Part shown: in pieces, positions 2 through 11,389 of the stretch | How positions within the stretch are numbered: the first letter of the stretch is position 1 | Layout of the letters: each line of letters starts with the position of its first letter | Source of the DNA: Verrucomicrobiota bacterium | GTDB lineage: Bacteria > Verrucomicrobiota > Verrucomicrobiae > Chthoniobacterales > UBA10450 | Assembly: GCA_003219495.1 (NCBI GenBank) | Contig: QHOZ01000159.1 | Span: 1 to 11,389, forward strand | Direction: 5' to 3' | Length of the DNA: 11,389 nucleotides | Notes under the pieces: generated by a model | The model's database searches: none | What the model was told of the DNA's origin: nothing | What the model saw: the letters and a program-made list of their open reading frames with translations, nothing else | Position numbers and translations under genes: made by a program

Positions 2-115
2 CCCTACAAGATCGACAACCGCGCCCTTTTTTATGCGAGCTCAATCGGGACCGATCCGCGCGTGTCCGACATTATTCTCGAACAAGCCACCGCCTGCGAT
101 TCCGCTCCTGATTAA
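2..115 (+). CDS. C-terminus of a CbiX-like sirohydrochlorin chelatase (partial)
   Basis: Reading from base 2, an open frame runs to TAA at 113-115 and encodes 37 residues; the gene starts outside the window. The tail contains LFYASSIGTDPRVSDIILEQ, which resembles the C-terminal element of CbiX/SirB class II chelatases (aromatic residues, then GT-x-P and a helix of the VADVILER type). CbiX-family enzymes insert cobalt or iron into sirohydrochlorin in the cytoplasm. Context supports this: the second gene downstream encodes the 4Fe-4S module that is fused to a CbiX domain in Deinococcus DR2241. The AAG ATC GAC near its start is the first copy of the repeated decamer. With so few residues the family call is an inference; that the frame is coding is more secure. 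Confidence 0.5.
   Translation, partial: PYKIDNRALFYASSIGTDPRVSDIILEQATACDSAPD
8..17 (+). repeat. AAGATCGACA word, copy 1
   Basis: Exact copy of a decamer found 11 times in this window (starts 8, 868, 2325, 4019, 4306, 4590, 6466, 6915, 7556, 8625, 9493). Here it lies in the partial chelatase gene and is read in frame as Lys-Ile-Asp. Confidence 0.75.
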
Positions 116-167
116 GAATAGTTGCGCGGTGGCCCGGCCTCGCAATCTTTGTGGCCCGCCAGTCGTT

Positions 168-626
168 ATGCACCCTGACACATTAAAGAAGCTTCAGGAC
201 ATCGGAGCCTTTGTTCTCGCGAGCAACTGCACGAAGAAAAGCATCAAACAAGTCGCGGAGATGATCCGGGCCGCGCGCGATTATCGTTGGGTCGCGATTT
301 ACAAAATCGTGAAGGACGAATTTGTGATCATGGGCGGGACGGGGGACGAACCGCCTGCTTATCCGCGCTTTCCGACTACACAAGGCTTGTGCAGCGCAGC
401 GCTTGATTCTGGCAAAGTGATCGTTGTCGGCGACGTTTCGAAGGACAAACGGTATCTGCCTGCATTTCACACCACGCGCTCGGAAATCATTGTGCCAATG
501 AAAGATGAGCATAAGCACATTGTTGGAATGCTCGACGCGGACAGCGACAAGTTGAACGCCTTCGGCGATGAAGATAAACAATTTCTCGAGCGCGCGGCCG
601 GCCTGATTGCGCATTGTCTGGCGTAA
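168..626 (+). CDS. GAF-domain protein related to free methionine-(R)-sulfoxide reductase
   Basis: A 152-residue single GAF domain. The open frame extends upstream to an ATG at 33, but that stretch overlaps the end of the previous gene and has no protein-like character, so I start at ATG 168 (MHPDTLKKLQ). The core WVAIYKI (41-47), QGLCSAAL (72-79), SEIIVPM (105-111) and GMLDADS (120-126) follows the fRMsr (YebR/MsrC) fold order. Of the three fRMsr redox cysteines only the one in the G-[LV]-C motif is present (C75). The positions expected to carry the other two hold Tyr65 and Thr102/Thr103, so reductase activity is doubtful and a ligand-sensing or vestigial role is equally possible. Its stop is overlapped by the next gene (614-626), implying cotranslation with the 4Fe-4S protein. 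Confidence 0.8.
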   Translation: MHPDTLKKLQDIGAFVLASNCTKKSIKQVAEMIRAARDYRWVAIYKIVKDEFVIMGGTGDEPPAYPRFPTTQGLCSAALDSGKVIVVGDVSKDKRYLPAFHTTRSEIIVPMKDEHKHIVGMLDADSDKLNAFGDEDKQFLERAAGLIAHCLA

Positions 627-1270
627 ATCCAATCGAACGCCTACTCGGCGCGATTCTGGGCGACCAAAGCCGCTTCGGCCAGCTTCTCATTCGCGGAACG
701 AGCAGCGGCGGTTTTGTCCTTTGTCACCGCGACGATCAAAACGCCGCCACTCTGCAAGTTTTTCGAAGCGCTGAGGACGCGATCGAGATCGCGCGCTACG
801 ACGAAGCGGGGAATTACCGCCCGCTGAAGACCGCTCCGGATTTGAGGCGCGGCTGGCAATTGGAAGTTGTCGATCTTAGCGAGCTGCGCCGCGCGCTCGA
901 TTATTTTTATCCAGGACGACTTGCTGCTCTGGTCGCCTGGGAAAGAAAACGGCTAACAACAACGCCGTTGCGTGACACGTTGGATCGCCAATCGGGGATG
1001 TATCGCGTCGCGGCGAAGATTTCGGATCAGCAAATCGACGATGTTGTCGCAAACACATGTCGATCGGACGGCAGTTGTTTGCGCACGATTTTGTGGAAAA
1101 GAGATAAAACCGGAGCAATTTCATCCACAAAACTCCCGTCGGAGAAATTCGAGCCAGCGCACGATCAAACCGGCCGCGGTGAGAAGACGATTCCGCTGCT
1201 CTGTCAGGAAGCGTGCGCGGTGTTGCTGAACGAGTGTCGCAGAGCGGTTAAAGGCGAAACCGAAGAATGA
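614..1270 (+). CDS. DR2241-type 4Fe-4S cluster protein (stabilising domain + Fer4_23-like domain)
   Basis: A 218-residue protein. Residues about 5-135 resemble the DR2241 stabilising domain, including YFYPGRLAALVAW (98-110) and RQSGMYRV (125-132). The C-terminal part carries four cysteines in the arrangement CRSDGSC (C149, C155) and CQEAC (C197, C201), matching the DR2241 4Fe-4S binding domain; C208 is a fifth. In Deinococcus this module is fused behind a CbiX chelatase; here it stands alone, with a CbiX-like gene ending two genes upstream, so it probably serves the same tetrapyrrole pathway. The only plausible start is TTG at 614, which overlaps the GAF gene by 13 nt and suggests translational coupling. 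Its stop overlaps the next start as ATGA (1267-1270). Family assignment is from memory of the motif, not a search. Confidence 0.65.
   Translation: MSGVNPIERLLGAILGDQSRFGQLLIRGTSSGGFVLCHRDDQNAATLQVFRSAEDAIEIARYDEAGNYRPLKTAPDLRRGWQLEVVDLSELRRALDYFYPGRLAALVAWERKRLTTTPLRDTLDRQSGMYRVAAKISDQQIDDVVANTCRSDGSCLRTILWKRDKTGAISSTKLPSEKFEPAHDQTGRGEKTIPLLCQEACAVLLNECRRAVKGETEE
868..877 (-). repeat. AAGATCGACA word, copy 2
   Basis: Exact copy on the minus strand inside the 4Fe-4S protein gene, which reads its complement as GTT GTC GAT CTT (Val-Val-Asp-Leu). Confidence 0.75.
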
Positions 1271-2412
1271 TTGTCCGCGCGAAAGTCGTCGTCACGATGG
1301 ACGGCCCGCCGATCGAAAATGGTGCGGTCGTGATTGTGGGAGAACGCATCACCGACGTCGGGAAATTTTCCGAGCTGAGAAAGGCCCACTCGACGGACGA
1401 AGTTGTCGATCTCGGTGAACGAGGACTCCTGCCCGGGCTAATCAACGCGCATTGCCATCTCGATTACACGCGCCTGCGCGGCAAGATTCCGCGGCAGAAA
1501 TCGTTCACGGACTGGATTCGCGCGATTAACGCTGAGAAAGCGACGCTCTCGCCGCAAGACTACGTCGCGTCGATAAACGAAGGCTTTGTTGAAGCAAAGC
1601 GATTCGGAACGACGACGATCGCCAATCTGACTGCGTTTCCGGAATTGGTTGCGCGAATTCAGGCGCCGATTCGGACTTGGTGGTTTGCCGAATTGATCGA
1701 AATCGCAGACGCACTGGGGACTGGCGCCGCACGCGCCTTTTACCGCATCAGCAAATTTGTATCGGCGTTGCGAAGAAATTGCGGACCGCGAAGATATTTT
1801 GCTCACGACCCATTTGGCTGAATCGCGGGAGGAGATGTCGATGTTTGGGGACGCGCGCGGGCCGCTCTACGATTTCTTGAAGGGAATCGGGCCGGCCATG
1901 AGCGATTTTTCCGACGAAACCCCGGTCGAAAAGTTTTTAGTGGAACGCGTGACGAAAATCGATCGCACCTACCTGCTGGTGCACCTGAACGAAATGACGC
2001 AGACCGATTTTGAATTGTTTGCAGCATCGAAAGGTCGATTCTCGGTCGTCCATTGTCCGCGGAGTCATGCGTACTTCGAGCATTCGCCGTTTCAGTTCGA
2101 AAAACTACGTGCGCTCGGACTAAACATTTGTCTCGGAACGGACAGTTTGGCGAGTAACGTGGACTTGAGTTTGTTCGCGGAGATGCGCGCGTTTCAAAAA
2201 GAGTTTCCGAACGTTTCGCCGGAAGAAATTCTAAAGATGGTGACCTCGAATCCTGCGCGCGCGTTGCGACGCTCGGAAAGATTTGCGCGGAATTCTTTGC
2301 GGACCTCATCGCGGTTCCGCTTACAAGATCGACAGCGATCTTCGACACGATCATTGCGTCCGGCCAGCCGGCCGGCTGGTCGATGGTCGGAGGCCGGGTT
2401 TTGGCCCCGTAG
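1267..2412 (+). pseudogene. TRZ/ATZ-type metal-dependent amidohydrolase, broken by two frameshifts
   Basis: Three frame segments together spell one amidohydrolase. From ATG 1267 to about 1705 the frame gives the N-terminal beta domain and the metal motif NAHCHLDYTRL (H62, H64). Family-like sequence then continues one frame over from about 1706 (HWGLAPHAPFTAS, YRRCEEIA, LLTTHLAES, CPRSHAYF, LGTDSLASN, SNPARAL). From about 2266 to TAG at 2410-2412 it returns to the first frame (TLGKICAEFFADLIAVP, MVGGRVLAP). Metal-binding motifs survive in pieces, but between ELIEI and HWGLAPHAP the protein looks about 25-30 residues shorter than relatives, so the first lesion seems to be a real deletion rather than a one-base error. 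The family deaminates or hydrolyses cyclic amidines (S-adenosylhomocysteine, guanine, aminodeoxyfutalosine); the substrate cannot be chosen here. Assembly or read errors remain possible. Confidence 0.8.
2325..2334 (+). repeat. AAGATCGACA word, copy 3
   Basis: Exact copy in the last part of the amidohydrolase gene. In the family-like frame it is read ACA AGA TCG ACA (Thr-Arg-Ser-Thr), a different codon phase from copies 1 and 2. Confidence 0.75.
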
Positions 2413-2413
2413 A

Positions 2414-2477
2414 GGTAAATTCTCAAAACCGCTTTCTTTTTCTCAAAACTGAAATATTCTCCGCGCTGAGATTTACC
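2414..2477 (+). promoter_or_regulatory. Repeat-rich leader before the response regulator start
   Basis: The 65 bp between the amidohydrolase stop and the regulator ATG hold two structures. GGTAAATTCTCA (2414-2425) and TGAGATTTACC (2467-2477) form an inverted repeat with one bulged base; its right arm abuts the ATG. Inside it, TCTCAAAAC occurs twice in direct orientation (2421-2429 and 2441-2449), 20 bp apart, about two helical turns. An operator, an autoregulatory site or a start-codon hairpin are all possible. I see no clear -24/-12 or -35/-10 pair and no strong ribosome binding site. Confidence 0.4.
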
Positions 2478-3845
2478 ATGGCAAAAATCGTAATTATCGA
2501 CGACGAGCCCGCAATGGTGGAGGTCATTGTGACCCTCTGTCGCGAAAAGGGGCATCAAGTTTTCCCATTCAACTCAGCGCCGAAAGCGGTCGAGCAGCTC
2601 GACAGCATCGAACCGCAAGTGGTCATCGCCGACATCAAGATGGAAACGATGAGCGGCTTCGATGTGCTGCGCCACGTCCGCGAACATCATCGGCAGACGG
2701 CGGTCATTTTGATCACGGCCTACGGAACCGAGGAGACAGCGGTCCAGGCGATGCGAATGGGCGCTTACGATTACATCAAGAAGCCGTTCAAGATCGACGA
2801 GCTGCAACTCACGGTGCAGCGCGCGCTCGATTATCAAGCAGCCGTTCGCGAAAACGTTTATCTCCGGAAAGAACTCAAGAATCGCTACAAGTTCGAGAAC
2901 ATCATCGGCACGAGCGGCAACATGCAGCACGTTTACAATTTGATCAGCAAAGTCGCCGACACGGATAGCACGGTGTTGATCGTCGGTGAAAGTGGCACGG
3001 GCAAGGAGCTCGTCGCGCGCGGTCTACATTTTAATTCCAACCGCCAGCATCATCCATTCGTCGCGATCAACTGCAGCGCGTTGCCGGAAAATTTGCTCGA
3101 GTCGGAATTGTTCGGGCACAAGAAAGGTTCGTTCACGGGGGCAGTTGTCGACAAGCGCGGTCTGTTCGAGGAAGCAAACCTCGGCACGATCTTCCTCGAC
3201 GAAGTGAATTCAATGGCGCCGGCATTGCAGACAAAGCTGCTGCGTGTTTTACAGGAGCGTGAAGTCCGGCGAGTGGGCGACAACAAAAGTTCGCCCGTTA
3301 ACGTGCGCGTCGTCGGAGCAACGAACGAAGCGCTGCAACCGAAGTTAAAGGACGGAACTTTTCGCGAGGACTTGTATTACCGACTCGCCGTCATTCCGAT
3401 CGAGATCCCGGCATTGCGTGATCGGCTCGAAGACGTTCCGCTGTTGGTGAATCATTTTCTCCAGAAACAAGCGAGCTCCTCCGGAGGCGAGCCGAAAAAG
3501 ATCGATCCCGAAGCGGTCGATATTCTGTGTCATTACAATTATCCCGGAAACGTGCGCGAATTGGAGAATGCGATCGAGCGCGCCTGTGCGTTATGTGAGA
3601 ACGATCAGATTTTGGCGACTGATCTGCCGCCGCACATCGTCAGTCACGCCAAAGGCGATAAGCAGGACCACGCCCTCGCGAACATGCCGGTGGGGCAGAC
3701 GCTCGACGATTTTGTCGCGCAACAGGAGCGCAGCTACATCGAAGCGACGCTCCAACATTGCGATGGCTCGCGCGAAAAAGCCGCCCAGATGCTCGGCATC
3801 AGCATGGCCACGCTTTATCGCAAAATTGAACCGAAGAAGAAGTAG
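2478..3845 (+). CDS. NtrC-class sigma-54-dependent response regulator
   Basis: A 455-residue cytoplasmic transcription activator with three domains in the standard order. Receiver (1-120): acidic pair D8/D9, phospho-acceptor D52 in ADIKM, T80, and K102 in KKPF. AAA+ sigma-54 activator (about 140-380): Walker A GESGTGKE (170-177), loop GSFTGA (217-222, a common variant of GAFTGA that contacts sigma-54), Walker B TIFLDE (237-242), and [12 protein letters not shown] (354-365). A Fis-type helix-turn-helix closes the protein (about 430-450, [20 protein letters not shown]). I start at ATG 2478 because the receiver begins immediately ([10 protein letters not shown]); the open frame runs further upstream only through the end of the previous gene. 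All catalytic motifs are intact. No histidine kinase is adjacent, so its partner and target promoters are unknown. Length is typical. Confidence 0.95.
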
Positions 3846-3877
3846 CGAGCGACTCAGCTATTCGACGCGTCGCTCGC
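3845..3877. terminator. Hairpin at the convergent regulator/fmt junction
   Basis: GCGAGCGAC (3845-3853) and GTCGCTCGC (3869-3877) form a perfect 9-bp inverted repeat with a 15-base loop. It spans the junction of two converging genes and reaches into the last codons of fmt. Neither side has a T-run, so it is at best a weak or factor-assisted bidirectional terminator. Confidence 0.45.
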
Positions 3878-4768
3878 ACGAATGGCTCCGCGCAGAAAAT
3901 CGGTAGCGCTCATTCGCCGTTTGCCTTCGAGCTGCACTTCAGTCAGCGACAACGCGCGATCTGCCGCCGCGATCACGAGCTCTTTATCACGGCGCAAAAT
4001 TTCGCCGGGCTTGCCGCGAAGATCGACAATCGATGCGGAGAAAATCTTGAGCTTTCGATTTTGGAAATCGCTGAACGCTCCCGGCCACGGATTGTAAGCG
4101 CGAATCTTTCGCTCGATCGTTTCCGCGGGCTCGTTCCAATTGATGCGCCCCGACTCGCGATTGAGTTTCGGCGCGTAAGTCGCAGACGCTTTGTCTTGCG
4201 GAACGCGCGGCGCGTTTGGAAACATTTTTAACGCCTCGAGCAAAACTTCCGGTGCGATTTCGGCGAGCCGATCGTGCAACGACTCGCCGGTTTCATTCGC
4301 CGCGATGTCGATCTTGCGTTGCAACAAGACGTCGCCGGTGTCGAGACCTTCATCCATGTACATGACCGTCATTCCGGTTTCGCGATCGCCGGCCGCGATG
4401 GCGGCCTGAATCGGCGCCGCGCCGCGCCAGCGTGGCAGCAGCGACGCGTGCAAATTCAAACACGCGATCTTTGGAGTTTCGAGAACGGCGCGCGACAGAA
4501 TCTGCCCGTACGCGAAAACGACGATCATATCCGGCGCGAGCGCGCGAATTTGTTCGATCGCTTGAGGATCTTTGATTTTCGCCGGCTGTAAGATCGACAT
4601 CTTGCCTTCATCGAGCGCAGCTTTGATCGGCGGCGCGGTGATTTTTTGCTCGCGACCGGCGGGTTTATCCGGCTGCGTGACAACGCCGACGAGTTCGTGC
4701 TCGGATTTTTGCAGCGCGCGCAACGTCGGCACGCCGATGTCGCCGGTGCCGATGAATACGATCCGCAT
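3854..4768 (-). CDS. fmt: Methionyl-tRNA formyltransferase
   Basis: A 304-residue enzyme that transfers the formyl group of 10-formyltetrahydrofolate to initiator Met-tRNA, allowing bacterial translation initiation. The N-terminal Rossmann-like formyltransferase domain shows MRIVFIGTGDIGVPTL at the start, the signature LNLHASLLPRWRGAAPIQ (104-121) with catalytic N105 and H107, and D143 in DEGLDTGDVL. The C-terminal OB-like tRNA-binding domain begins near residue 205 (SGRINW, RAYNPWPGA). Length is close to the family norm of about 310. It is the last gene of the minus-strand cluster, starting 7 nt after the zinc-ribbon gene stop, and ends 8 nt from the converging regulator gene. Three copies of the repeated decamer lie inside it. 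Confidence 0.97.
   Translation of the reverse strand: MRIVFIGTGDIGVPTLRALQKSEHELVGVVTQPDKPAGREQKITAPPIKAALDEGKMSILQPAKIKDPQAIEQIRALAPDMIVVFAYGQILSRAVLETPKIACLNLHASLLPRWRGAAPIQAAIAAGDRETGMTVMYMDEGLDTGDVLLQRKIDIAANETGESLHDRLAEIAPEVLLEALKMFPNAPRVPQDKASATYAPKLNRESGRINWNEPAETIERKIRAYNPWPGAFSDFQNRKLKIFSASIVDLRGKPGEILRRDKELVIAAADRALSLTEVQLEGKRRMSATDFLRGAIRASDASNS
4019..4028 (+). repeat. AAGATCGACA word, copy 4
   Basis: Exact copy on the plus strand; fmt reads the complement as ATT GTC GAT CTT (Ile-Val-Asp-Leu). Confidence 0.75.
4306..4315 (-). repeat. AAGATCGACA word, copy 5
   Basis: Exact copy on the minus strand, read by fmt as AAG ATC GAC ATC (Lys-Ile-Asp-Ile). Second of three copies in this gene, 287 bp from copy 4. 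Confidence 0.75.
4590..4603 (+). repeat. AAGATCGACA word, copy 6, extended to AAGATCGACATCTT
   Basis: The decamer at 4590-4599 is followed by TCTT, giving a 14-mer with complementary arms AAGAT/ATCTT. The same 14-mer recurs at 6915 and 9493. fmt reads the complement in another phase, giving Met-Ser-Ile-Leu. Confidence 0.75.
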
Positions 4769-4775
4769 TTGCGGA

Positions 4776-5057
4776 TTATCGAAGCGATCGAAGTGGAATG
4801 CGAACTTGTCTCCGTTGCGGCTGCATCGCCTGCGCCATCACCTTTTCGCTGGCGGTGACTTCGCGTTGCCCGACGGACGAGCCGCACTCGGTGCAGAGAT
4901 AATCGAAGATCTCTTTCTCCGGCAGAACTAGGAGCAATCGCTCGCGCACCGGCGTGGTCGCGCGGCATTTTTCGCAGTAAAGGCTCGAGGCAGTGAAATT
5001 CTCAAACTGCGACTGCTGCGGTCGCGGTTGCGGCGGCTCGTGCTGGTGCGGGTTCAT
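4776..5057 (-). CDS. Small zinc-ribbon-like protein of unknown function
   Basis: A 93-residue protein. The N-terminus is rich in Pro, Gln and His (residues 1-17), then two CxxC knuckles appear: CEKC (C28, C31) and CTEC (C55, C58), separated by 23 residues that include a hydrophobic strand (RLLLVLPEKEIFDYL). This is the layout of a zinc ribbon, with the metal inferred rather than shown. The tail is basic (RRQVRIPLRSLR), compatible with nucleic-acid or ribosome contact. The start is ATG at 5057 because no other start codon precedes the first CxxC; it overlaps the end of the upstream kinase gene by 56 nt in a different frame. It sits between the kinase and fmt, so it is expected to be co-transcribed with translation genes. 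I do not recognise the family. Confidence 0.7.
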   Translation of the reverse strand: MNPHQHEPPQPRPQQSQFENFTASSLYCEKCRATTPVRERLLLVLPEKEIFDYLCTECGSSVGQREVTASEKVMAQAMQPQRRQVRIPLRSLR

Positions 5058-5640
5058 TCTTGATTCCGTTAACGCTCGCTAAAATGTCGAACAACACTTT
5101 CGCGGGCGGCTGCGTCGCGTCAACGACCGTGATGCAATCCTTCGGATAATGACTGAGCACCGGCTTGGATTCTTTTTCGTAAATGTCGAGCCGACGTTTG
5201 ATGACTTCTTCGTTCGCGTCATCGAGGCGGTTGTCTTTCAACGCGCGCTTTTTCAATCGCCCGAACAAGGTCTCCCGATTTGGACAGGCGAGATGAAAAA
5301 CTTTCTCCACGTCGATCAGTGCTTCCATGATCTTCGCTTGCGCCACATTTCTCGGGATCCCGTCGAGCACGAGGATATCGATGTCGGGTTTGAATTTGTG
5401 CGCGTCGACCGCGGCATCAATCGCTTCTTTCCAAAGCTCGACCGTGATGTCGTCCGGCACGAGCTGGCCTTTGCTCGAATATTCCAGGAACGCTTTGCCG
5501 AGTTTTGTGCGGGTGTCGATCGAGCGGAAGACGTCCCCGCACGGGCAATGGAAATATCGGGGGATCGTGCCGAGGGTTTTCCCTTGAGTGCCTTTGCCGC
5601 TACCGGGCGCGCCGAACAAAATAAACGTGCGGTATTTCAT
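5002..5640 (-). CDS. adk: Adenylate kinase-like nucleoside monophosphate kinase
   Basis: A 212-residue protein from ATG 5640 (a GTG at 5646 would add two residues). The P-loop GAPGSGKGT is at 10-18, followed by the NMP-binding region with CGDVFR (34-39, usually GDLLR) and DGIPRN (93-98, usually DGFPRT). The LID is short, around 130-160 (GRLKKRALKDNRLDD), and has no zinc cysteines. It should phosphorylate AMP to ADP with ATP, though the altered NMP motifs leave another NMP substrate possible. The last residues are a low-complexity Ala/Thr/Val tail coinciding with the 56-nt overlap by the zinc-ribbon gene. The position downstream of rplU-rpmA is a translation/nucleotide operon context. An inverted repeat surrounds its start codon. 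Confidence 0.85.
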   Translation of the reverse strand: MKYRTFILFGAPGSGKGTQGKTLGTIPRYFHCPCGDVFRSIDTRTKLGKAFLEYSSKGQLVPDDITVELWKEAIDAAVDAHKFKPDIDILVLDGIPRNVAQAKIMEALIDVEKVFHLACPNRETLFGRLKKRALKDNRLDDANEEVIKRRLDIYEKESKPVLSHYPKDCITVVDATQPPAKVLFDILASVNGIKNEPAPARAAATATAAVAV

Positions 5641-5662
5641 GAACACGTCAGGTATACCGCAC
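5627..5662 (-). promoter_or_regulatory. Inverted repeat enclosing the kinase start codon
   Basis: GTGCGGTAT (5627-5635) and ATACCGCAC (5654-5662) are perfect 9-base complements with an 18-base loop that contains the ATG (5638-5640) of the kinase gene. In the minus-strand transcript this hairpin could limit ribosome access, or the site could bind a protein. No strong Shine-Dalgarno sequence is visible nearby. Confidence 0.35.
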
Positions 5663-5685
5663 TCGCGGTAAATCGGGAAGGGAAG

Positions 5686-5940
5686 TTATTTCGTTCCGAC
5701 GGGATCGATATTGACGCGGCGACCTCCGCGATCGAAGCGAACGTTGCCATCCACGAGCGCGAAAATCGTGTAATCGCGGCCGAGACCAACGTTCTTGCCC
5801 GGTTGAAATTTCGTGCCGCGCTGGCGAATAATAATATTGCCCGCGACAACCATCTCGCTGCCGAATTTTTTAACGCCCAGCCGTTTGCTAACGCTATCGC
5901 GGCCGTTCTTAACGCTGCCCTGTCCTTTTTTATGAGCCAT
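5686..5940 (-). CDS. rpmA: 50S ribosomal protein L27
   Basis: An 84-residue protein beginning [16 protein letters not shown], the form of L27 without the cleaved N-terminal extension seen in Firmicutes. [15 protein letters not shown] (34-48) and [15 protein letters not shown] (51-65) are the family core. L27 sits at the 50S peptidyl transferase centre, where its N-terminus reaches the tRNA ends. It starts 3 nt after the rplU stop, the usual rplU-rpmA arrangement, and is followed 45 nt later by the kinase gene. Confidence 0.98.
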
Positions 5941-5943
5941 TGC

Positions 5944-6258
5944 TTAGGATTTTTTAGATTTTGAACCGGCGGCAATACTTTTGATTTTCACGCGCGTCAA
6001 CTTGCGGCGATGCCCAACCGTGCGGTGATAACCTTTGCGGCGCCTGTATTTGAACGCGATGACCTTTTTATCTTTGCGTTGCTCAACGACCTCGGCCGTG
6101 ACCTTTCCACCGTCGCTCAATTTCCCGCCGTCGATGTGCATCAACACTTCGAACGTTGCGGTCTTGCCCGGCTCAACGTCCAAAAGATCGACGTCGACCG
6201 TATCGCCTTCCGCGACGCGATATTGCCGGCCACCAGTCTTGATAATTGCGTAGGTCAT
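5944..6258 (-). CDS. rplU: 50S ribosomal protein L21
   Basis: A 104-residue protein beginning MTYAIIKTGGRQYRVAEGD, with the C-terminal signature FKYRRRKGYHRTVGHRRK (73-90). L21 binds 23S rRNA with L20 in the large subunit. A purine-rich GGAAAAGA lies just upstream of ATG 6258 as a possible ribosome binding site. It is the first gene of the rplU-rpmA-kinase-zinc ribbon-fmt series. The 71 bp upstream contain a terminator-like hairpin, so either a promoter or leader control lies there. Confidence 0.98.
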   Translation of the reverse strand: MTYAIIKTGGRQYRVAEGDTVDVDLLDVEPGKTATFEVLMHIDGGKLSDGGKVTAEVVEQRKDKKVIAFKYRRRKGYHRTVGHRRKLTRVKIKSIAAGSKSKKS

Positions 6259-6276
6259 AAGGTCTTTTCCGAGGGG

Positions 6277-6307
6277 AAAAAGCCGCGCAAAGTCTCACAG
6301 AAGCGGC
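6277..6307 (-). terminator. Terminator-like hairpin between rsmI and rplU
   Basis: On the minus strand GCCGC (6307-6303) and GCGGC (6286-6282) form a short stem followed directly by TTTTT (6281-6277). An alternative outer pairing of GGGG and CCCC flanks it. It may end rsmI transcripts, or act as an attenuator in the rplU leader. The stem is only 5 bp with a 16-base loop. Confidence 0.4.
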
Positions 6308-6329
6308 CCCTTGGCAACCCGGAAATCGT

Positions 6330-6998
6330 CTACTTTTGAGACGGTGAAATTAGCAGGACAATCTCGCCTTTTGGAAGGTGCGCCTCGTAATGCGCAAGGA
6401 GCTCGGTCGCAGTGCCACGCCGGAATTCTTCGAATTTCTTAGTCAGCTCGCGCGCAACGCACAGTTGTCGATCTTGCAGGATGTCGATCGACGCCTTCAG
6501 CGTTTTCGTAAGCCGATAAGGCGATTCGAAAAAGATCGATGTTACTTCACGCGTGGCGGCGGCGCGCAATTCGCGCTCGCGCTGGCCGCTTTTGATCGGC
6601 AAAAATCCGCCAAAGAAAAATCTCTCGGCCGAGAATCCGGATCCGACCAGCGCCGTCGAGATCGATGACGCGCCGGGAATAATTGTGAATGGAAGTTCGC
6701 GCTTGATGCATTCGCGGATCAATCGCGCGCCGGGATCGGAAACTCCCGGCGTTCCGGCATCGGTGATGAGCGCGATTTTTTCGCCGGCCGCGAGTCGTTC
6801 CACCAACTGCGCGGTGCGCATCGCTTCATTGTGCTGGTGATAACTGATCAGCGGCTTCGCAATTTGATAATGCTTTAACAAAATTCCCGAATGCCGCGTG
6901 TCCTCCGCTGCGACAAGATCGACATCTTTCAAGACCTCAAGCGCGCGCAGTGTGATGTCGCCGAGGTTTCCAATAGGCGTAGCGACAACGTAAAGCAT
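6330..6998 (-). CDS. rsmI: 16S rRNA 2'-O-ribose C1402 methyltransferase
   Basis: A 222-residue SAM-dependent tetrapyrrole-methylase-fold enzyme that methylates the ribose of C1402 in 16S rRNA, tuning the P site. Motifs are VATPIGNLGDITLRA (5-19), AEDTR (31-35), LITDAGTPGVSDPG (77-90), PGASS, FFESPYR and GEIVLLI near the end. It is shorter than the E. coli enzyme (about 286 residues) because the C-terminal extension is missing; short forms are common. It lies upstream of rplU on the same strand with a 71-bp gap, and divergently from the lipoprotein gene with 60 bp between starts. Two copies of the repeated decamer lie inside it. Confidence 0.96.
   Translation of the reverse strand: MLYVVATPIGNLGDITLRALEVLKDVDLVAAEDTRHSGILLKHYQIAKPLISYHQHNEAMRTAQLVERLAAGEKIALITDAGTPGVSDPGARLIRECIKRELPFTIIPGASSISTALVGSGFSAERFFFGGFLPIKSGQRERELRAAATREVTSIFFESPYRLTKTLKASIDILQDRQLCVARELTKKFEEFRRGTATELLAHYEAHLPKGEIVLLISPSQK
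6466..6475 (-). repeat. AAGATCGACA word, copy 7
   Basis: Exact minus-strand copy, read by rsmI as CAA GAT CGA CAA (Gln-Asp-Arg-Gln), a codon phase distinct from the Lys-Ile-Asp copies. Confidence 0.75.
6915..6928 (+). repeat. AAGATCGACA word, copy 8, extended to AAGATCGACATCTT
   Basis: Second copy of the 14-mer. rsmI reads the complement as GAT GTC GAT CTT (Asp-Val-Asp-Leu). Confidence 0.75.
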
Positions 6999-7058
6999 CG
7001 AATTTGAATAAGGCCAACTCGTCTAACGAGAAACGAAAATCATACAAAGGATATTATT
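6999..7058. promoter_or_regulatory. Divergent intergenic region, rsmI and lipoprotein gene
   Basis: Sixty AT-richer bases between divergent starts must hold promoters for at least one side. CTCGT (7018-7022) and ACGAG (7026-7030) form a small inverted repeat around CTA, a possible operator. AAAGGA (7046-7051) is a good ribosome binding site for the ATG at 7059. I cannot place -35/-10 boxes with confidence. Confidence 0.4.
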
Positions 7059-7430
7059 ATGAGAATACGAAATTGGTTTTTGGCGCTGATGCCGTTCGGA
7101 TTGATTGGTTGTGCGGAGGAAGCGCCGCCTCCTGTCGCGACGACGACGACCGTAACCCGCGAAGTGACGACCACTGGTCCGACGGTTGAGCCGGTTGGCA
7201 CTAATGTCGTGGTGACCCAAGCGCCGCCGCCCGTGCGCGTCGAAACGCAAACGGTCGCGCCGGGCCCCACTTATGTCTGGCAAAAAGGCTACTGGCGTTG
7301 GAATGGCGGACGTTATCTTTGGGTGCCGGGGCATTGGGTTGAGCGTCCACGTGCCGCGGCCGTTTGGACGGAAGGTCATTGGGTTCGCCGCGGTGGCGGT
7401 TGGATTTGGGTCGGCGGTCACTGGCAATAA
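7059..7430 (+). CDS. Tryptophan-rich YXWGXW-repeat lipoprotein
   Basis: A 123-residue secreted lipoprotein. Residues 1-17 form a signal peptide ending in lipobox LIGC, with C18 as the acylation site. A Thr/Pro/Val-rich, low-complexity spacer follows (about 20-68). The C-terminal part is four copies of an eight-residue unit, aromatic/small-x-W-x-x-G-[YH]-W: YVWQKGYW (72-79), YLWVPGHW (86-93), AVWTEGHW (101-108) and WIWVGGHW (115-122), spaced 14-15 residues. This matches the YXWGXW repeat family found in envelope proteins of Gram-negative bacteria; its molecular role is not known. Outer-membrane location is inferred. AAAGGA seven bases upstream supports the start. The next gene follows after a strong hairpin. 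Confidence 0.85.
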   Translation: MRIRNWFLALMPFGLIGCAEEAPPPVATTTTVTREVTTTGPTVEPVGTNVVVTQAPPPVRVETQTVAPGPTYVWQKGYWRWNGGRYLWVPGHWVERPRAAAVWTEGHWVRRGGGWIWVGGHWQ

Positions 7431-7437
7431 GAGAATT

Positions 7438-7478
7438 TGCATCGCGTCGCAGTGAAGACTTTCTTGCGGCGCGATGCA
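7438..7478 (+). promoter_or_regulatory. 15-bp hairpin that buries the hydrolase start codon
   Basis: Bases 7438-7452 pair with 7464-7478 over 15 positions (13 Watson-Crick, two G-U) around an 11-base loop (7453-7463). The outer nine pairs are TGCATCGCG/CGCGATGCA. The ATG of the hydrolase (7474-7476) lies in the 3' arm. No T-run follows, so it is not a classical terminator by itself; start-codon sequestration or 3'-end protection of the lipoprotein mRNA are the likely roles. Confidence 0.5.
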
Positions 7479-8316
7479 TGATTCCTCCCGCCGAACGCCT
7501 ACGCGAAAAGGCGTTCGATTTTTCTTCGGCGTTTTTCTGCTTTTGCTGATCGCGCTGTCGATCTTGTACTTCAAGCAGCACGCGCTCGTTTATCATCCGC
7601 GACCGTACGGCGAAAGTTATGTTTACGCGCTGCCGGCCAACGGCGTTGAAATCAATTACACCGTCGCCAATGCGAAATACGTCGCGTTCTACGTTTCTGG
7701 AATTCACGCGACGCCGGACCGAGTGTGGGTCGCATTTTGCGGTAACGGTTCACTCGCGCTGGATTGGACGTCGATCCTCAAACAATATCCGCCGAATGGT
7801 GACGCGTTTTTGTTGATTGATTATCCCGGTTACGGAAAGAACGGCGGTTATGCGACGATCGCGAGCACGCGTCTGTCGGCTGCTGCGGCGCTGAAGACAT
7901 TGCTCGAGCGGCTGCAAACCAATGAAGATCGCCTGACGCTCTGCACGATCGGGCATTCGTTGGGCGCGGCGGTCGCGCTCGATTTCGCCACGAATCATCG
8001 CGTGCAAAAAATTGTCCTGATCGCGCCATTCACAACACTGCGAGAAGAAGCGGCGAGCATCTTCGGCGGTTGGGTTTCGCATTTGCTGATCGAGAGTTAC
8101 GACAACCGCGCAAATCTTCGTGGCGCGATGAAGCTGAATCCAGTAACGCGCGTCGCGATTTTTCATGGCACGGAGGATCAGGTGATTCCGGTCCGGATGG
8201 GCACCGAGCTCGCTCGCGAATTTCCGTTCGTGCAATTCTTTGCGATCAAAGGCGCCGATCACGTGAGTGTCCTCAATCACGCTCACGACGACATTATCAA
8301 TTGGATGAACGATTGA
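7474..8316 (+). CDS. Membrane-anchored alpha/beta hydrolase (BEM46/ABHD-like)
   Basis: A 280-residue serine hydrolase. A basic N-terminus (RRTPTRKGVR) and one transmembrane segment (about 15-33) suggest an inner-membrane anchor with the catalytic domain outside. The nucleophile motif GHSLG (160-164) gives S162; HGTEDQVIP (231-239) gives the acid D235; H263 in GADHVSVL is the probable catalytic His. The oxyanion region reads CGNGS (89-93), where relatives usually have HGNG, and DYPGYGKNGG (116-125) is the typical following loop. The substrate is unknown; lipids, esters or peptides are possible. ATG 7474 is chosen because the TM segment follows directly and later starts would fall within it. 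No Shine-Dalgarno is evident, and two hairpins overlap the start region. Confidence 0.85.
   Translation: MHDSSRRTPTRKGVRFFFGVFLLLLIALSILYFKQHALVYHPRPYGESYVYALPANGVEINYTVANAKYVAFYVSGIHATPDRVWVAFCGNGSLALDWTSILKQYPPNGDAFLLIDYPGYGKNGGYATIASTRLSAAAALKTLLERLQTNEDRLTLCTIGHSLGAAVALDFATNHRVQKIVLIAPFTTLREEAASIFGGWVSHLLIESYDNRANLRGAMKLNPVTRVAIFHGTEDQVIPVRMGTELAREFPFVQFFAIKGADHVSVLNHAHDDIINWMND
7492..7523 (+). terminator. Intrinsic-terminator-like hairpin inside the hydrolase start region
   Basis: CGAACGCC (7492-7499) and GGCGTTCG (7510-7517) form a perfect 8-bp stem with a 10-base loop, followed by A and five T (7519-7523). It has the form of a rho-independent terminator yet lies over codons 7-17 of the hydrolase. 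It could end lipoprotein transcripts or attenuate hydrolase expression. Confidence 0.45.
7556..7565 (-). repeat. AAGATCGACA word, copy 9
   Basis: Exact minus-strand copy within the transmembrane codons of the hydrolase, where the complement is read CTG TCG ATC TTG (Leu-Ser-Ile-Leu). Confidence 0.75.
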
Positions 8317-8362
8317 GTGAACGAATGACGGCCTGGAACGATCCAAGCTGTGGAGACGTTCA

Positions 8363-8626
8363 GTGAAGCCAGATTTCCAGTTCGACCACCAGCGCTTCCC
8401 GCGCACCGACTGTTTCTTTCAGTCGGGTGCCGACCGTTGGTATCATTACTGGTCGAACGATGAGGGAGATTTTCGCGCTCACAACGTTGGCCGCGAATAT
8501 TTGATCGCGGCCGCGCGCGAACGTGCAAAAGACATGGTCGTTCTCGGCATTCTTCTGCTCGCGGCAGCGTGGCCTATTGTTTTGGTAATGATCGAAGTGG
8601 CGCGGCTCCACCAAACTCACCACTAA
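8363..8626 (+). CDS. Small single-pass membrane protein of unknown function
   Basis: An 87-residue protein. GTG 8363 is the start because GGAG (8352-8355) sits 7 bases upstream. The N-terminal half is polar and aromatic (DCFFQSGADRWYHYW, 16-30). One transmembrane segment follows at about 58-79, after a charged stretch (AARERAKD), suggesting a C-tail anchor or a cytoplasmic N-terminus. The histidine-rich end is RLHQTHH. I do not recognise a family. It follows the hydrolase by 46 bp, and its GTG overlaps the stop of a 13-codon mini-frame starting at 8325. Its TAA overlaps the stop of the converging proline dehydrogenase gene. Confidence 0.65.
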   Translation: MKPDFQFDHQRFPRTDCFFQSGADRWYHYWSNDEGDFRAHNVGREYLIAAARERAKDMVVLGILLLAAAWPIVLVMIEVARLHQTHH

Positions 8627-11389
8627 GATCGACAATGTCGATCAGCGGGCGGAAGAAATTCGTCGCGGTATTGCGGAGTAGTTTCGGGCGCGAACCCGTG
8701 ACGCGTAATGTTTTCGGTGACGACGCGCGGGACGACGAATTGCAAAAGATAATCCGCGCCGCCGGCTTTGGTGCCGTCGCCACTCATTTTAAATCCGCCG
8801 AATGGATGACGGCCGACGACCGCGCCGGTGCATGAACGGTTAATGTAAACGTTACCCGCCACGAGCTCCGCTTTCGCGCGCTCGATGTTCGCCGGACTGC
8901 GCGAGAAAAATCCGGCGGTTAGCGCGAACTCGGTGCCATTTGCGATTTCAAATGCTTCATCGAGATCGCGCGCTTTGATCACGCTCAAGACCGGGCCGAA
9001 GATTTCTTCGCACGCGATCTTTGCCGCCGGATCGACATTCGTGAAGATCGTCGGCGGAATAAAAAATCCCTGGTTCGGCACATCGCCGCGTTGAAAGGCG
9101 AGACGCGCTTCCTGTTTACCGCTCTCGATGTAGCCGAGAATATTTTTGTGCGCTTTACCGTCGATCACCGGGCCGACCGTAATTCCGGGTTCTTCCGGGT
9201 TTCCGACGCGCAAGCTCGCCGCGGCGCTCATCAAACGTTCCATCGCGCGCGGATAAATTTCATCGAGAATAATCAAGCGGGAGCAGGCCGAACACTTTTG
9301 GCCTTGATAGCCGAACGCTGAATAAATCGTGTCGACGATCGCTTCGTCGAGATCTGCATCAGCGTCGATGATCACCGCGTTCTTGCCACCCATTTCGCAA
9401 ATAACTCGTTTTAGCTCGCGCTGACCTTCGCGCGTCTTACCTGCGCTTTCCCAAATCCGCAGACCGACTTCGCGCGAACCGGTGAACGCGATAAGATCGA
9501 CATCTTTGTGATCGACCAAATGCGCGCCCATAACTGAGCCTTTGCCGGGAAGATAATTCAGAACGCCGCGCGGGATTCCGGCTTCCTCGAAAATCTCCAT
9601 CAACATTGCGCCGACGACTGCGGATTGCTCGGCGGGTTTCATGATGACGGTGTTGCCGGTGACGAGTGCGGCGGCTGTCATGCCGGTGAGAATGGCGAGC
9701 GGGAAATTCCATGGCGCGATGATCAAGGCGACGCCGCGCGGCCAATAATGCTGATAACTTTCTTCGCCGAGCACGTGTTGCGTCAATCGCGGGCGACCAA
9801 TCATCCGCATTTGTTGCGCGTAGAAGAGACAGAAATCTATCGCTTCGCGAATGTCGCCATCCGCCTCCGCCCACGCTTTGCCGACTTCGTAAACTTCGAG
9901 GGCTGAAATTTCATAACGGCGCCGATCCATAATGTCGGCCGCGCGTTCGAGCAGACAGCAACGCGCTTCAAACGGCGTGCGGCTCCATTTTTCGAACGCT
10001 TCGCGCGCCGCTTTTACCGCGCGTTCGGCCTCAGCAATTCCTGCTTCGGCAACATGACCGACCACTTCGTCGGGCCGGCTCGGGTTGATCGACGCGATCG
10101 TGCTGTCGGTCCAAACGCGATCGCCATCGATGACGAGCGGATATTTTTGCCCGAGTTGCATCTTCACGTGCGCGAGGGCCGCGCGCATTCGTTCCTGGCT
10201 TTCTTTGTAGACGAAATTTATCAGTGGCGCGTTTTCGTAAATGTCGCCCGGCGGCGTATCGAGAGAAGCGCCGTCACCGCGAATCTCGAGTTGGCGGGCG
10301 CCGTTCGAGCTTTGCGGGACGATTCCAGCGGGATCGCGGAGCAATTCGTTTTCGGAAACGTTATCGGAAAATTTTGCGCGCAAGAAACCTTCGTTCGAAG
10401 TGTTTTCGAGCAGACGACGCACGAGATAAGCCATTCCCGGCAACAACTCGCCGACCGGCGAATATTCGCGAACGCGATATCCCGTTTCGACGAGCGCGCG
10501 TTTCACCGGACCGGCCATGCCGTAGAGCAATTGAAATTCGAAACGACTGCGGTCGATCCCGAGTTGCTCTGCGAGCGCTTGCGCGTGCGCGATGCTGCGA
10601 ACGTTGTGCGACCCGAACGCAGCGGTGACGATCGCTTCGTTCTCGAGCAAGAGGCGCGTGAGCACTTCGAAATTCAGATCGCTCTCGGGCTTTTGGAGAA
10701 AGACCGGGCAGTCCCATCCGTTTTGACGCGATTTTATTTTTTCAAAATCCCAGTAAGCGCCTTTGACCAGCCGAACGGCGAATCGCGTTCCTCGCTCGCG
10801 GCCCCATTCGAGCAAATCGCGCAGATCGTCTTCGGCGTCGCGCAGATAAGCTTGAATGACGATGCCGACGTGCGGCCAGTCGCAAAATTCGCTCTCCATG
10901 AACAGGGTCTTGAAGAGATCGAGCGTGGAATTTTTGTGCGCGTAACTCTCCATGTCGAAATTCACAAACGCGCCGAGCTCTCGCGCGCGTCGCAGGATCG
11001 GGCGCAATTTTGGCGCGAGATGCGCGATCGCGTTCGCCGGATCCGCGGGATTCATTTGTGAATAGAGCGCCGAGATTTTGACGGAAAGATTTACGACCGG
11101 GAACAGATCGGCGTCTTTCCCAAGCGGGTCCGACCAACCGCGACATTCGTGACCAAGATGCTCGAGCAACTGCATGCAGCGCATCGCGTATTCGTTCGCT
11201 TCGTTTTCGCTAACGACCGCTTCGCCCAGGAGATCGACCGTGAAACCGATGCCTTGTTTGCGCCGTTTCCGCAGAGTCTTCATGACGTCTTGCGGATTTT
11301 TTCCGGCGATGAACTGCCGCGCCATGCCGGAGACGTTCCAGCGCAGGAGCTGACCGCTGATAAACGGCACAATCCTCGCCGCGCGGACA
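8623..11389 (-). CDS. putA: Bifunctional proline dehydrogenase / delta-1-pyrroline-5-carboxylate dehydrogenase (5' end outside window)
   Basis: The enzyme oxidises proline to P5C (FAD) and then glutamate semialdehyde to glutamate (NAD). From a GTG at 11370 it has 915 residues, but the frame stays open to the window edge (VRAARIVPFISG), so the true N-terminus lies beyond. Positions below count from 11370. The proline dehydrogenase barrel spans about 40-335: VNLSVKISALYSQ (93-105), FVNFDMESY (135-143), AVRLVKGAYWD (198-208), FQLLYGM (279-285), YSPVGELLPGMAYLVRRLLE (303-322). The aldehyde dehydrogenase domain spans about 410-880: APWNFPLAI (552-560), KPAEQS (578-583), FTGSREVG (629-636), general base E659 in CEMGGKNA, nucleophile C693 in GQKCSACSRL, EEIFGPV (788-794). 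All catalytic residues are present. A DNA-binding N-terminal domain, as in E. coli PutA, cannot be assessed. No proline permease is in view. Confidence 0.95.
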   Translation of the reverse strand, partial: VRAARIVPFISGQLLRWNVSGMARQFIAGKNPQDVMKTLRKRRKQGIGFTVDLLGEAVVSENEANEYAMRCMQLLEHLGHECRGWSDPLGKDADLFPVVNLSVKISALYSQMNPADPANAIAHLAPKLRPILRRARELGAFVNFDMESYAHKNSTLDLFKTLFMESEFCDWPHVGIVIQAYLRDAEDDLRDLLEWGRERGTRFAVRLVKGAYWDFEKIKSRQNGWDCPVFLQKPESDLNFEVLTRLLLENEAIVTAAFGSHNVRSIAHAQALAEQLGIDRSRFEFQLLYGMAGPVKRALVETGYRVREYSPVGELLPGMAYLVRRLLENTSNEGFLRAKFSDNVSENELLRDPAGIVPQSSNGARQLEIRGDGASLDTPPGDIYENAPLINFVYKESQERMRAALAHVKMQLGQKYPLVIDGDRVWTDSTIASINPSRPDEVVGHVAEAGIAEAERAVKAAREAFEKWSRTPFEARCCLLERAADIMDRRRYEISALEVYEVGKAWAEADGDIREAIDFCLFYAQQMRMIGRPRLTQHVLGEESYQHYWPRGVALIIAPWNFPLAILTGMTAAALVTGNTVIMKPAEQSAVVGAMLMEIFEEAGIPRGVLNYLPGKGSVMGAHLVDHKDVDLIAFTGSREVGLRIWESAGKTREGQRELKRVICEMGGKNAVIIDADADLDEAIVDTIYSAFGYQGQKCSACSRLIILDEIYPRAMERLMSAAASLRVGNPEEPGITVGPVIDGKAHKNILGYIESGKQEARLAFQRGDVPNQGFFIPPTIFTNVDPAAKIACEEIFGPVLSVIKARDLDEAFEIANGTEFALTAGFFSRSPANIERAKAELVAGNVYINRSCTGAVVGRHPFGGFKMSGDGTKAGGADYLLQFVVPRVVTENITRHGFAPETTPQYRDEFLPPADRHCRS
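8625..8643. repeat. AAGATCGACA word, copy 10, as an inverted pair at converging stops
   Basis: The decamer (8625-8634) is followed after one base by a partial inverted copy, so GATCGACA (8627-8634) and TGTCGATC (8636-8643) make a perfect 8-bp palindrome. The plus-strand stop TAA (8624-8626) and minus-strand stop TAG (8623-8625) both overlap its edge. It may double as a short hairpin terminator, though no T-run follows. Confidence 0.7.
9493..9506 (+). repeat. AAGATCGACA word, copy 11, extended to AAGATCGACATCTT
   Basis: Third copy of the 14-mer. The putA gene reads the complement as GAT GTC GAT CTT (Asp-Val-Asp-Leu), just before FTGSREVG. Confidence 0.75.

Follow-up and report, generated by a model that had tools for sequence, protein, structure and literature searches.

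The 11,389-nt window analysed here (the whole stretch of DNA under study) carries repeated copies of a short word, AAGATCGACA. We put at roughly 0.6 the probability that these copies are its part of a recognition word spread through the whole genome, AAGATCGACAW (W1), which most likely works like the uptake words of the Neisseriaceae and Pasteurellaceae. W1 itself is a genome-wide, lineage-specific word of a clade of Chthoniobacterales (Verrucomicrobiota), the bearers of which are probably soil bacteria.

Eleven copies in one window

Every copy listed by the initial annotation was found: 11 exact matches to AAGATCGACA, seven on the plus strand and four on the minus strand. They are given below with their strand, the base that follows the word and, where present, the loci in which the same word is found, the comparison covering the best 80 among 580 loci. 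The gene for methionyl-tRNA formyltransferase (3854-4768, minus strand) holds copies at 4019..4028 (plus, A; L004, L009 and L021), 4306..4315 (minus, T; L004, L005, L009, L021 and L060) and 4590..4599 (plus, T; L004 and L007). The TP_methylase (RsmI-like) gene (6330-6998, minus strand) contains those at 6466..6475 (minus, A; L004 and L005) and 6915..6924 (plus, T; L004). The copy at 9493..9502 (plus, T), within the proline dehydrogenase/aldehyde dehydrogenase gene (8623-11370, minus strand), recurs in L005, L006, L010, L015, L018, L021, L043, L049, L050 and L060. That at 7556..7565 (minus, G), in the alpha/beta hydrolase gene (7474-8316, plus strand), is not conserved, having 3 and 5 mismatches in the two aligning orthologues. 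As the annotation had described, one copy (8625..8634; plus, A) lies across stop codons, namely those of two converging ORFs, 8363-8626 on the plus strand and the proline dehydrogenase/aldehyde dehydrogenase gene on the minus strand; a partial inverted copy follows it. Exact copies also occur at 8..17 (plus, A), 868..877 (minus, A) and 2325..2334 (plus, G). Four further sites differ from the word by one mismatch: GAGATCGACA at 1404..1413 (minus), the over-represented G3C variant AACATCGACA at 1836..1845 (minus), and AAGATCGACG at both 2790..2799 and 6184..6193 (plus).

This number of copies is far above chance. Dinucleotide shuffles of the window (n=200) gave a mean of 0.04 copies and a maximum of 1, and the second-order Markov expectation is 0.065. 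Codon bias was likewise insufficient: synonymous-codon shuffles within the ORFs of the window (n=100) yielded a mean of 0.61 and a maximum of 5, against 12 counted (the 11 copies, one of them scored twice owing to ORF overlap). The copies occupy all six phases relative to the ORFs, again as first described, and the next base is A or T in 9 of the 11.

W1 is abundant in a clade of Chthoniobacterales

The initial annotation had presented the word as a decamer. Those 10 bases are real, but the full motif in relatives is 11 bases long, with A or T after AAGATCGACA in 89-97% of copies in the flank profiles. Past base 11 the flanks carry at most about 0.3 bit per base, a weak signal that is partly codon-like. 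In dense relatives W1 is present 1,509 times in 2.1 Mb, 1,419 times in 2.8 Mb and 4,653 times in 2.9 Mb (rounded genome sizes), with the strands balanced, and its density in the five densest genomes is 0.5-1.6 per kb, also on balanced strands; such counts exclude an enrichment limited to this window. In 22 genomes the reversed word was counted 0-3 times each. Among 213 genomes of the order, 130 have at most 46 copies of W1 and the remaining 83 have 9 to 4,653, while the 11-base form is found no more than 37 times in 384 of the 387 sampled genomes of the phylum. A density of at least 0.2 per kb is reached in 18 of the 83 (22 genomes reached by loci plus G127-G187, a block picked after seeing the 213-genome counts).

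Within genes, W1 is most commonly read as KID or xVDL, as might be expected if codon usage, or common peptides like Lys-Ile-Asp, produced the enrichment as a side effect. However, the codon-preserving null in relatives gave means of 8.5, 6.3 and 7.1 against 111, 101 and 68 genic copies observed. The shuffled counts are thus at most roughly one tenth of the real number, which refutes this explanation and places the counts outside the range of such shuffles. Against it stand also the use of all six phases and an intergenic density above the average: on one contig 890 of 1,069 copies lie inside genes, but 145 of the 1,069 are fully non-coding, compared with 6.5% of the sequence. Finally, relatives poor in the word mostly have a different sequence at its places although their proteins are similar. 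We give a codon or peptide origin almost no weight. The thousands of dispersed copies might instead have been left behind by a small mobile element or a family of repeats, but the near-featureless flanks past base 11 make this unlikely, copies sit in conserved reading frames, and where two copies lie close together (see below) both linkers and flanks differ; we consider such an origin extremely improbable.

The spacing of W1 is only slightly even (gap CV 0.840 versus 0.905 +/- 0.029). On a 737-kb contig 532 of 1,070 copies are forward, and counting per 50 kb shows no consistent skew between the strands. Chi and KOPS are strand-polarised chromosome words; W1 resembles them as a short genome-wide lineage word, but lacks consistent strand skew on this one contig.

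A second, unrelated word

Other genomes of the same block are filled with a word unrelated to W1, GCCTAACGA (W2), in up to 4,605 copies. W2 reaches at least 0.2 per kb in 7 of the 83 genomes, and one genome, G158, carries both words, a combination that would not be expected from a single receptor. By eye, no common inner core of W1 and W2 was obvious in either orientation, unlike the dialects of the Neisseriaceae DUS (core CTG) or the Pasteurellaceae USS (core GCGG). We rejected a reading of GCCTAACGA as integron attC ends because it is dispersed as single copies in either orientation, many of them in genes.

Since de novo word lists came only from G158, G003, G006, five W2 loci and 14 word-poor loci, further dialects may exist. 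Several candidates from such searches were discarded: AACACGGCCA in G006 turned out to be a repeat of some 51 bp within a single kind of gene, GACATATACA sits in clustered repeats, ATCTCGACGA recurs chiefly where the coding sequence around PutA is conserved, and GTCATCCCGA belongs to a dispersed repeat. In L029 GAACTGTACGA is over-represented, but there it is a coding-type repeat with a spacing of about 147 bp; its highest count in the 213 genomes is 58, and the copies are clustered.

Both GATC and TCGA lie within W1, and there are abundant motifs whose function is not known, among them HIP1 (GCGATCGC) of cyanobacteria, a very abundant 8-base palindrome that contains GATC. The initial annotation had accordingly raised a methylation protein as an alternative, and the word could be a modification site, or the by-product of a bias around GATC that stems from a methyltransferase or from repair. 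W1 is like HIP1 in being abundant genome-wide and in containing GATC, but it has 11 bases, is directional and non-palindromic, and does not require GATC. Indeed, the variant AACATCGACA, which destroys GATC, occurs 18 times in G003 against 0.4-0.8 expected, and W2 has no GATC. These observations weaken the GATC-based alternative, and we regard it as improbable.

Conserved, decaying and paired sites

Between word-rich loci, W1 was identical at 314 of 485 aligned sites (65%) and W2 at 128 of 198 (65%), compared with 1,491 of 9,426 (16%) and 646 of 4,724 (14%) for the respective control 10-mers, which were matched on base composition, not codon context, each pair being counted both ways. In G158, G003 and G004 exact copies of W1 outnumber one-mismatch copies. 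The excess of one-mismatch over exact copies climbs as density falls (0.12, 0.32, 0.62 and 1.53), measured against an imperfect Markov baseline: outgroup loci, a set without the non-Verrucomicrobiota loci and L060, had 1 exact W1 and 45 one-mismatch copies versus 25 expected.

Inverted pairs at gene ends, which the first description cited for DUS and USS, did not prove general here. In 1.06 Mb of G158 there are 35 opposite-strand pairs within 60 bp, four of them convergent at 18 bp, versus 94 same-strand pairs, of which 62 are spaced at 15/16 bp. No 15-bp W1 doublets were found in viral contigs. Since doublets of 15-16 bp recur in this one genome, a dimeric or side-by-side reader is suggested.

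Paired sites of this kind would also suit cooperative binding by a chromosome protein inside the cell, serving the nucleoid, repair, segregation or recombination, whose sites would be kept by per-site selection and not by uptake. The strong conservation of sites and the enrichment of W1 between genes point the same way. On the other side, the 737-kb contig has no consistent polarity of the Chi or KOPS type, and the encoded residue changes at some copies, as in PutA, where LRDL becomes LVDL. Moreover, two unrelated words, with dense and decaying genomes in one block, suggest a reader that is rapidly changing and dispensable. On balance we think a chromosome protein unlikely, although it is the most serious rival to an uptake word.

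An uptake word would be expected to be scarce in foreign DNA, and one such case was seen: in the densest genome, a 105-kb conjugative-type island encoding a TrwC relaxase, a TraG-type ATPase and TrbI has no internal W1, versus about 180 at chromosome density (one island in one genome).

Pilus and uptake genes

A ComEC match was present in 79 of 80 genomes, with E of 1e-10 or better in 76; none of the 80 exceeded the curated cut-off, which 5 of 14 control genomes passed. PilT was above its cut-off in 25 of 26 genomes and PilM in 26 of 26, DprA was matched in 24 of 26, and pilin N-termini were present in 14 of 14. The ComEA-type HHH_3 domain was matched in 14 of 26 genomes and was absent from the word-rich G003, G004, G021, G129 and G157. 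Pilus, ComEC and DprA genes are equally present in word-poor genomes and do not separate them from word-rich ones.

Word-specific receptors comprise the minor pilin ComP and the candidate PpdA/ComN; in Pasteurellaceae, PpdA is reported to coevolve with the dialect. Unlike the Neisseriaceae, whose receptor is ComP, these genomes gave no ComP: a GspH profile found nothing in 26 genomes, and from the many pilins none was singled out as ComP-like. One pilin locus resembled a receptor locus but was set aside: in L205 its genes look, by eye, like those of type II secretion, and such pilins were seen in the 7 loci examined of 12.

Discussion

The initial annotation had proposed a genome-wide word analogous to DUS and USS. 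In relatives this was well supported by density, presence on both strands and in all phases, conserved sites, lineage dialects and a conjugative-type island without copies, a pattern consistent with a function in DNA uptake. Published accounts describe the Neisseriaceae DUS as a short directional word present about once per kb on both strands, with lineage dialects, few foreign-dialect copies, high site conservation and atypical occurrence in conjugative elements (PMC3630211, PMC2397512, PMC7371117), and say that most copies are intergenic. The Pasteurellaceae USS is portrayed as a highly enriched 9-base word with flanking preferences whose receptor was long unknown (PMC12616744).

W1 shares with DUS its directionality, density of about one per kb, occurrence on both strands, lineage dialects, scarcity of foreign-dialect copies and conserved sites, together with an atypical distribution in conjugative elements, seen here in the single island that has no internal W1. 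It differs in several respects: W1 and W2 are unrelated in sequence to DUS and belong to a different phylum, W1 copies are mostly within genes, inverted pairs are few where those of Neisseriaceae are numerous, same-strand 15-16 bp doublets occur, and one-mismatch copies are fewer than exact ones in the three genomes named above. Like USS, W1 is an enriched word; unlike USS, it has no GCGG core and its flank signal is weak and partly codon-like. We liken W1 to both in its most likely mode of working and assign it to neither.

If W1 is an uptake word, a DNA receptor on the cell surface, belonging to the type IV pilus machinery, would favour word-bearing DNA, which would enter via ComEC, and recombination with DNA taken up from kin would spread the copies and maintain them at permissive sites. 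Elsewhere in the block, genomes would read W2 in place of W1, and where a lineage lost or switched its reader, its word would decay by point mutation. More tentatively, and at somewhat less than even odds, this may be the first system of DNA-uptake words outside Pseudomonadota: one in a Verrucomicrobiota family, with two unrelated words, a dialect turnover in progress (G158, with sharp W1 and decaying W2) and a receptor gripping paired sites 15-16 bp apart. No report of a Verrucomicrobiota word of this kind was among the open-licence literature matches listed.

Some Verrucomicrobiota thus hold hundreds to thousands of copies of either of two unrelated words, outside both families with known uptake words. 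If the uptake reading is true, they would represent a third, unrelated case, implying that the trait arises repeatedly, and would offer many genomes at various stages of word gain and decay, in which selfish drive versus benefit, and word switching, could be tested by comparison. Natural transformation would be predicted in these little-cultured bacteria, and the words would provide a simple marker for sorting their DNA and spotting foreign islands in metagenomes.

Results

The decamer AAGATCGACA occurs 11 times in the window as exact copies, whereas dinucleotide shuffles predict 0.04 and a second-order Markov model 0.065. A recount found every copy at the coordinate reported in the initial annotation. 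Four further copies carry one mismatch. Shuffling synonymous codons within the window's ORFs gave a mean of 0.61 copies and a maximum of 5 in 100 trials, in agreement with the earlier proposal that codon bias alone is insufficient. The genes themselves are ordinary, encoding a sigma-54 response regulator, a formyltransferase, adenylate kinase, ribosomal proteins L27 and L21, an RsmI-like methylase, a hydrolase and a proline/aldehyde dehydrogenase (PutA; 8623-11370, minus strand). The PutA protein is 88% identical to that of an uncultured Chthoniobacterales bacterium and 72-88% identical to 50 loci whose records are titled Chthoniobacterales, Spartobacteria, Verrucomicrobia or Udaeobacter, among the best 80 of 580 matches; from the record titles, the host is probably a soil bacterium. 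An amidohydrolase gene (1267-2452) is broken into overlapping frames (1267-1821 and 1757-2452), and its end seems to be read in yet another; frameshifts in the sequence record or decay of the gene may account for this. Its last part holds one copy of the word.

All genome-wide figures come from the genomes of relatives. Copies from four genomes share the common form AAGATCGACA followed by A or T (hereafter W1). Bases 4-7 tolerate almost no variation in genomes G003 and G158, and more in G006; the variants AACATCGACA and TAGATCGACA are in excess, and flank preferences on either side are weak. Counts of W1 in 22 relatives spanned 19 (in a 4.2-Mb genome) to 1,509 (in 2.1 Mb), compared with 0-3 per genome for the reversed word. 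Across 213 Chthoniobacterales genomes, 130 had at most 46 copies; the remaining 83 (the block) had 9 to 4,653, the maximum being in G158 (2.9 Mb). In a sample of 387 genomes from the phylum, the 11-base W1 exceeded 37 copies in only three, which were the three block members that the sample included. Neither restriction to this window nor general Verrucomicrobiota composition thus explains W1, and the predicted genome-wide word is borne out in relatives. Close relatives of the window differ widely, with 654 copies in 2.0 Mb (the genome of locus L001) and 147 in 2.8 Mb (that of L002).

Within genes, W1 is read in all six phases, as had been claimed, most commonly as Lys-Ile-Asp and x-Val-Asp-Leu. 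Genic counts in G003, G004 and G006 (111, 101 and 68) lay far above codon-preserving shuffle means (8.5, 6.3 and 7.1), eliminating codon usage as an explanation in these relatives; the null is conservative because the word's own codons are in the shuffled pool.

Loci of other block genomes share a second word, GCCTAACGA (W2), with no obvious core in common with W1. It occurs 112 times in 99 kb against 2.0 expected; its genic copies number 84, while codon shuffles average 2.0. The highest count was 4,605 (G017, 4.3 Mb), and each of the 130 genomes outside the block had at most 30. Among the 83 block genomes, a density of at least 0.2 per kb was reached by W1 in 18 and W2 in seven, and by both only in G158. 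W1-rich genomes have a modest W2 excess over the reversed control (128 versus 45 in G003; 134 versus 60 in G004), compatible with relics or exchange. The ratio of one-mismatch excess to exact copies of W1 rose as density fell (G158, 0.12; G003, 0.32; G004, 0.62; G006, 1.53). The W2 ratio was 0.34 for loci rich in that word and 0.87 for G158; in G003, G004 and G006 it was 0.74, 0.78 and 1.68, from just 10, 11 and 5 exact copies. We read these ratios as a word maintained in dense genomes and decaying elsewhere, with W2 in decay within G158.

Individual sites are conserved. In pairwise alignments of nine W1-rich loci, 314 of 485 W1 copies were identical in the partner, compared with 1,491 of 9,426 control 10-mers of equal composition; for W2 the figures were 128 of 198 and 646 of 4,724. 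The neisserial uptake word, DUS, is conserved with comparable stringency (PMC2397512). L004, whose formyltransferase protein is 75% identical to the window's, keeps all three W1 sites of that gene unchanged; in nine aligning loci without W1, 24 of 27 places were 2-9 bases off and three were one off. The site in the hydrolase gene is not conserved in either of two aligned orthologues. An alignment of 51 PutA sequences has W1 at four positions and W2 at five, and the genomes with W1 there do not overlap with those that have W2. At some of these sites the word changes a residue that is common elsewhere.

A 1.06-Mb portion of G158 contains 62 same-strand W1 pairs whose starts are separated by exactly 15 or 16 bp; all remaining spacings up to 60 bp together account for 32, and opposite-strand pairs number 35. 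On a 737-kb contig there are 39 such doublets against 1.7 expected (maximum 6 in 200 trials). Neither coding nor duplication explains them, since 15 bp is in frame and 16 bp out of frame, and linkers and flanks are unlike. G003 and G004 have one doublet each, at 15 bp, and the trait is therefore established in G158 alone.

The same contig carries 1,070 W1 copies, 532 of them forward, without consistent strand skew along its length and spaced slightly more evenly than random. W1 is enriched between genes in G158 (145 of 1,069 copies fully non-coding, versus 6.5% of the sequence), an enrichment that W2 lacks (21 of 374). The largest W1-free gap is 105 kb, the second largest 5.3 kb. This gap (contig C14, about 355-459 kb; L171-L176), flanked by two different tRNA-Thr genes, is a conjugative-type island: ten scanned proteins include a TrwC relaxase, a TraG-type ATPase, TrbI, two RND pumps and a P-type ATPase. 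It contains no internal W1, the single copy counted there lying at its boundary. It does hold ten copies of W2 against 0.46 expected, as if a W2 genome had formerly been its host. Atypical DUS distribution has revealed conjugative elements in neisserial genomes (PMC7371117).

Other repeats were seen in relatives. AACACGGCCA belongs to one of about 51 bp, situated at the ends of G006 contigs or close to them (L124, L126, L130, L136). GTCATCCCGA is a dispersed repeat of several genomes (L008, L011, L016, L017, L044 and others), in many cases with a similar stretch after it. GAACTGTACGA marks a repeat spaced at about 147 bp (L029:21430-22171; G141, G142, G014), and was rejected as a third word, being clustered and present in at most 58 copies per genome.

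Genes for a candidate transformation machinery are present. ComEC-type matches occurred in 79 of 80 genomes, every one under the curated cut-off, PilT in 26 of 26 (25 above cut-off), PilM in 26 of 26 and DprA in 24 of 26; the GspH profile matched none of 26. ComEA-type HHH_3 domains, a component suggested initially, matched in 14 of 26, and pilin N-termini were found in 14 of 14, but searches for pilus and competence genes in up to 80 genomes singled out no word reader, and machinery genes did not differ clearly between word-rich and word-poor genomes. A pseudopilin locus resembling type II secretion (L205-L208, L211, L212, L215) encodes among its pilins one of about 150 amino acids that is basic in two W2 genomes (pI 8.9 and 8.8); its pI is 6.8 in a third genome, and in G158 it is 5.1.

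Discussion

Unlike the dialects of known uptake words (DUS and USS, the Pasteurellaceae word), W1 and W2 share no obvious core, and W1 does not form abundant inverted pairs in G158; we therefore do not class the system as either. The passage on such words in a 2025 paper (PMC12616744) names Neisseriaceae and Pasteurellaceae alone, and the matches listed in open-licence literature included no report of one in Verrucomicrobiota. A serious rival is that the word is the site of an intracellular binding protein, since such a protein would match nearly all the same facts. Nevertheless, an uptake-word system fits best, because the word is dense and directional, conserved yet changeable between lineages, absent from a conjugative-type island and without chromosome polarity. 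By analogy, W1 and W2 would work like DUS and USS, with DNA uptake itself as their candidate function.
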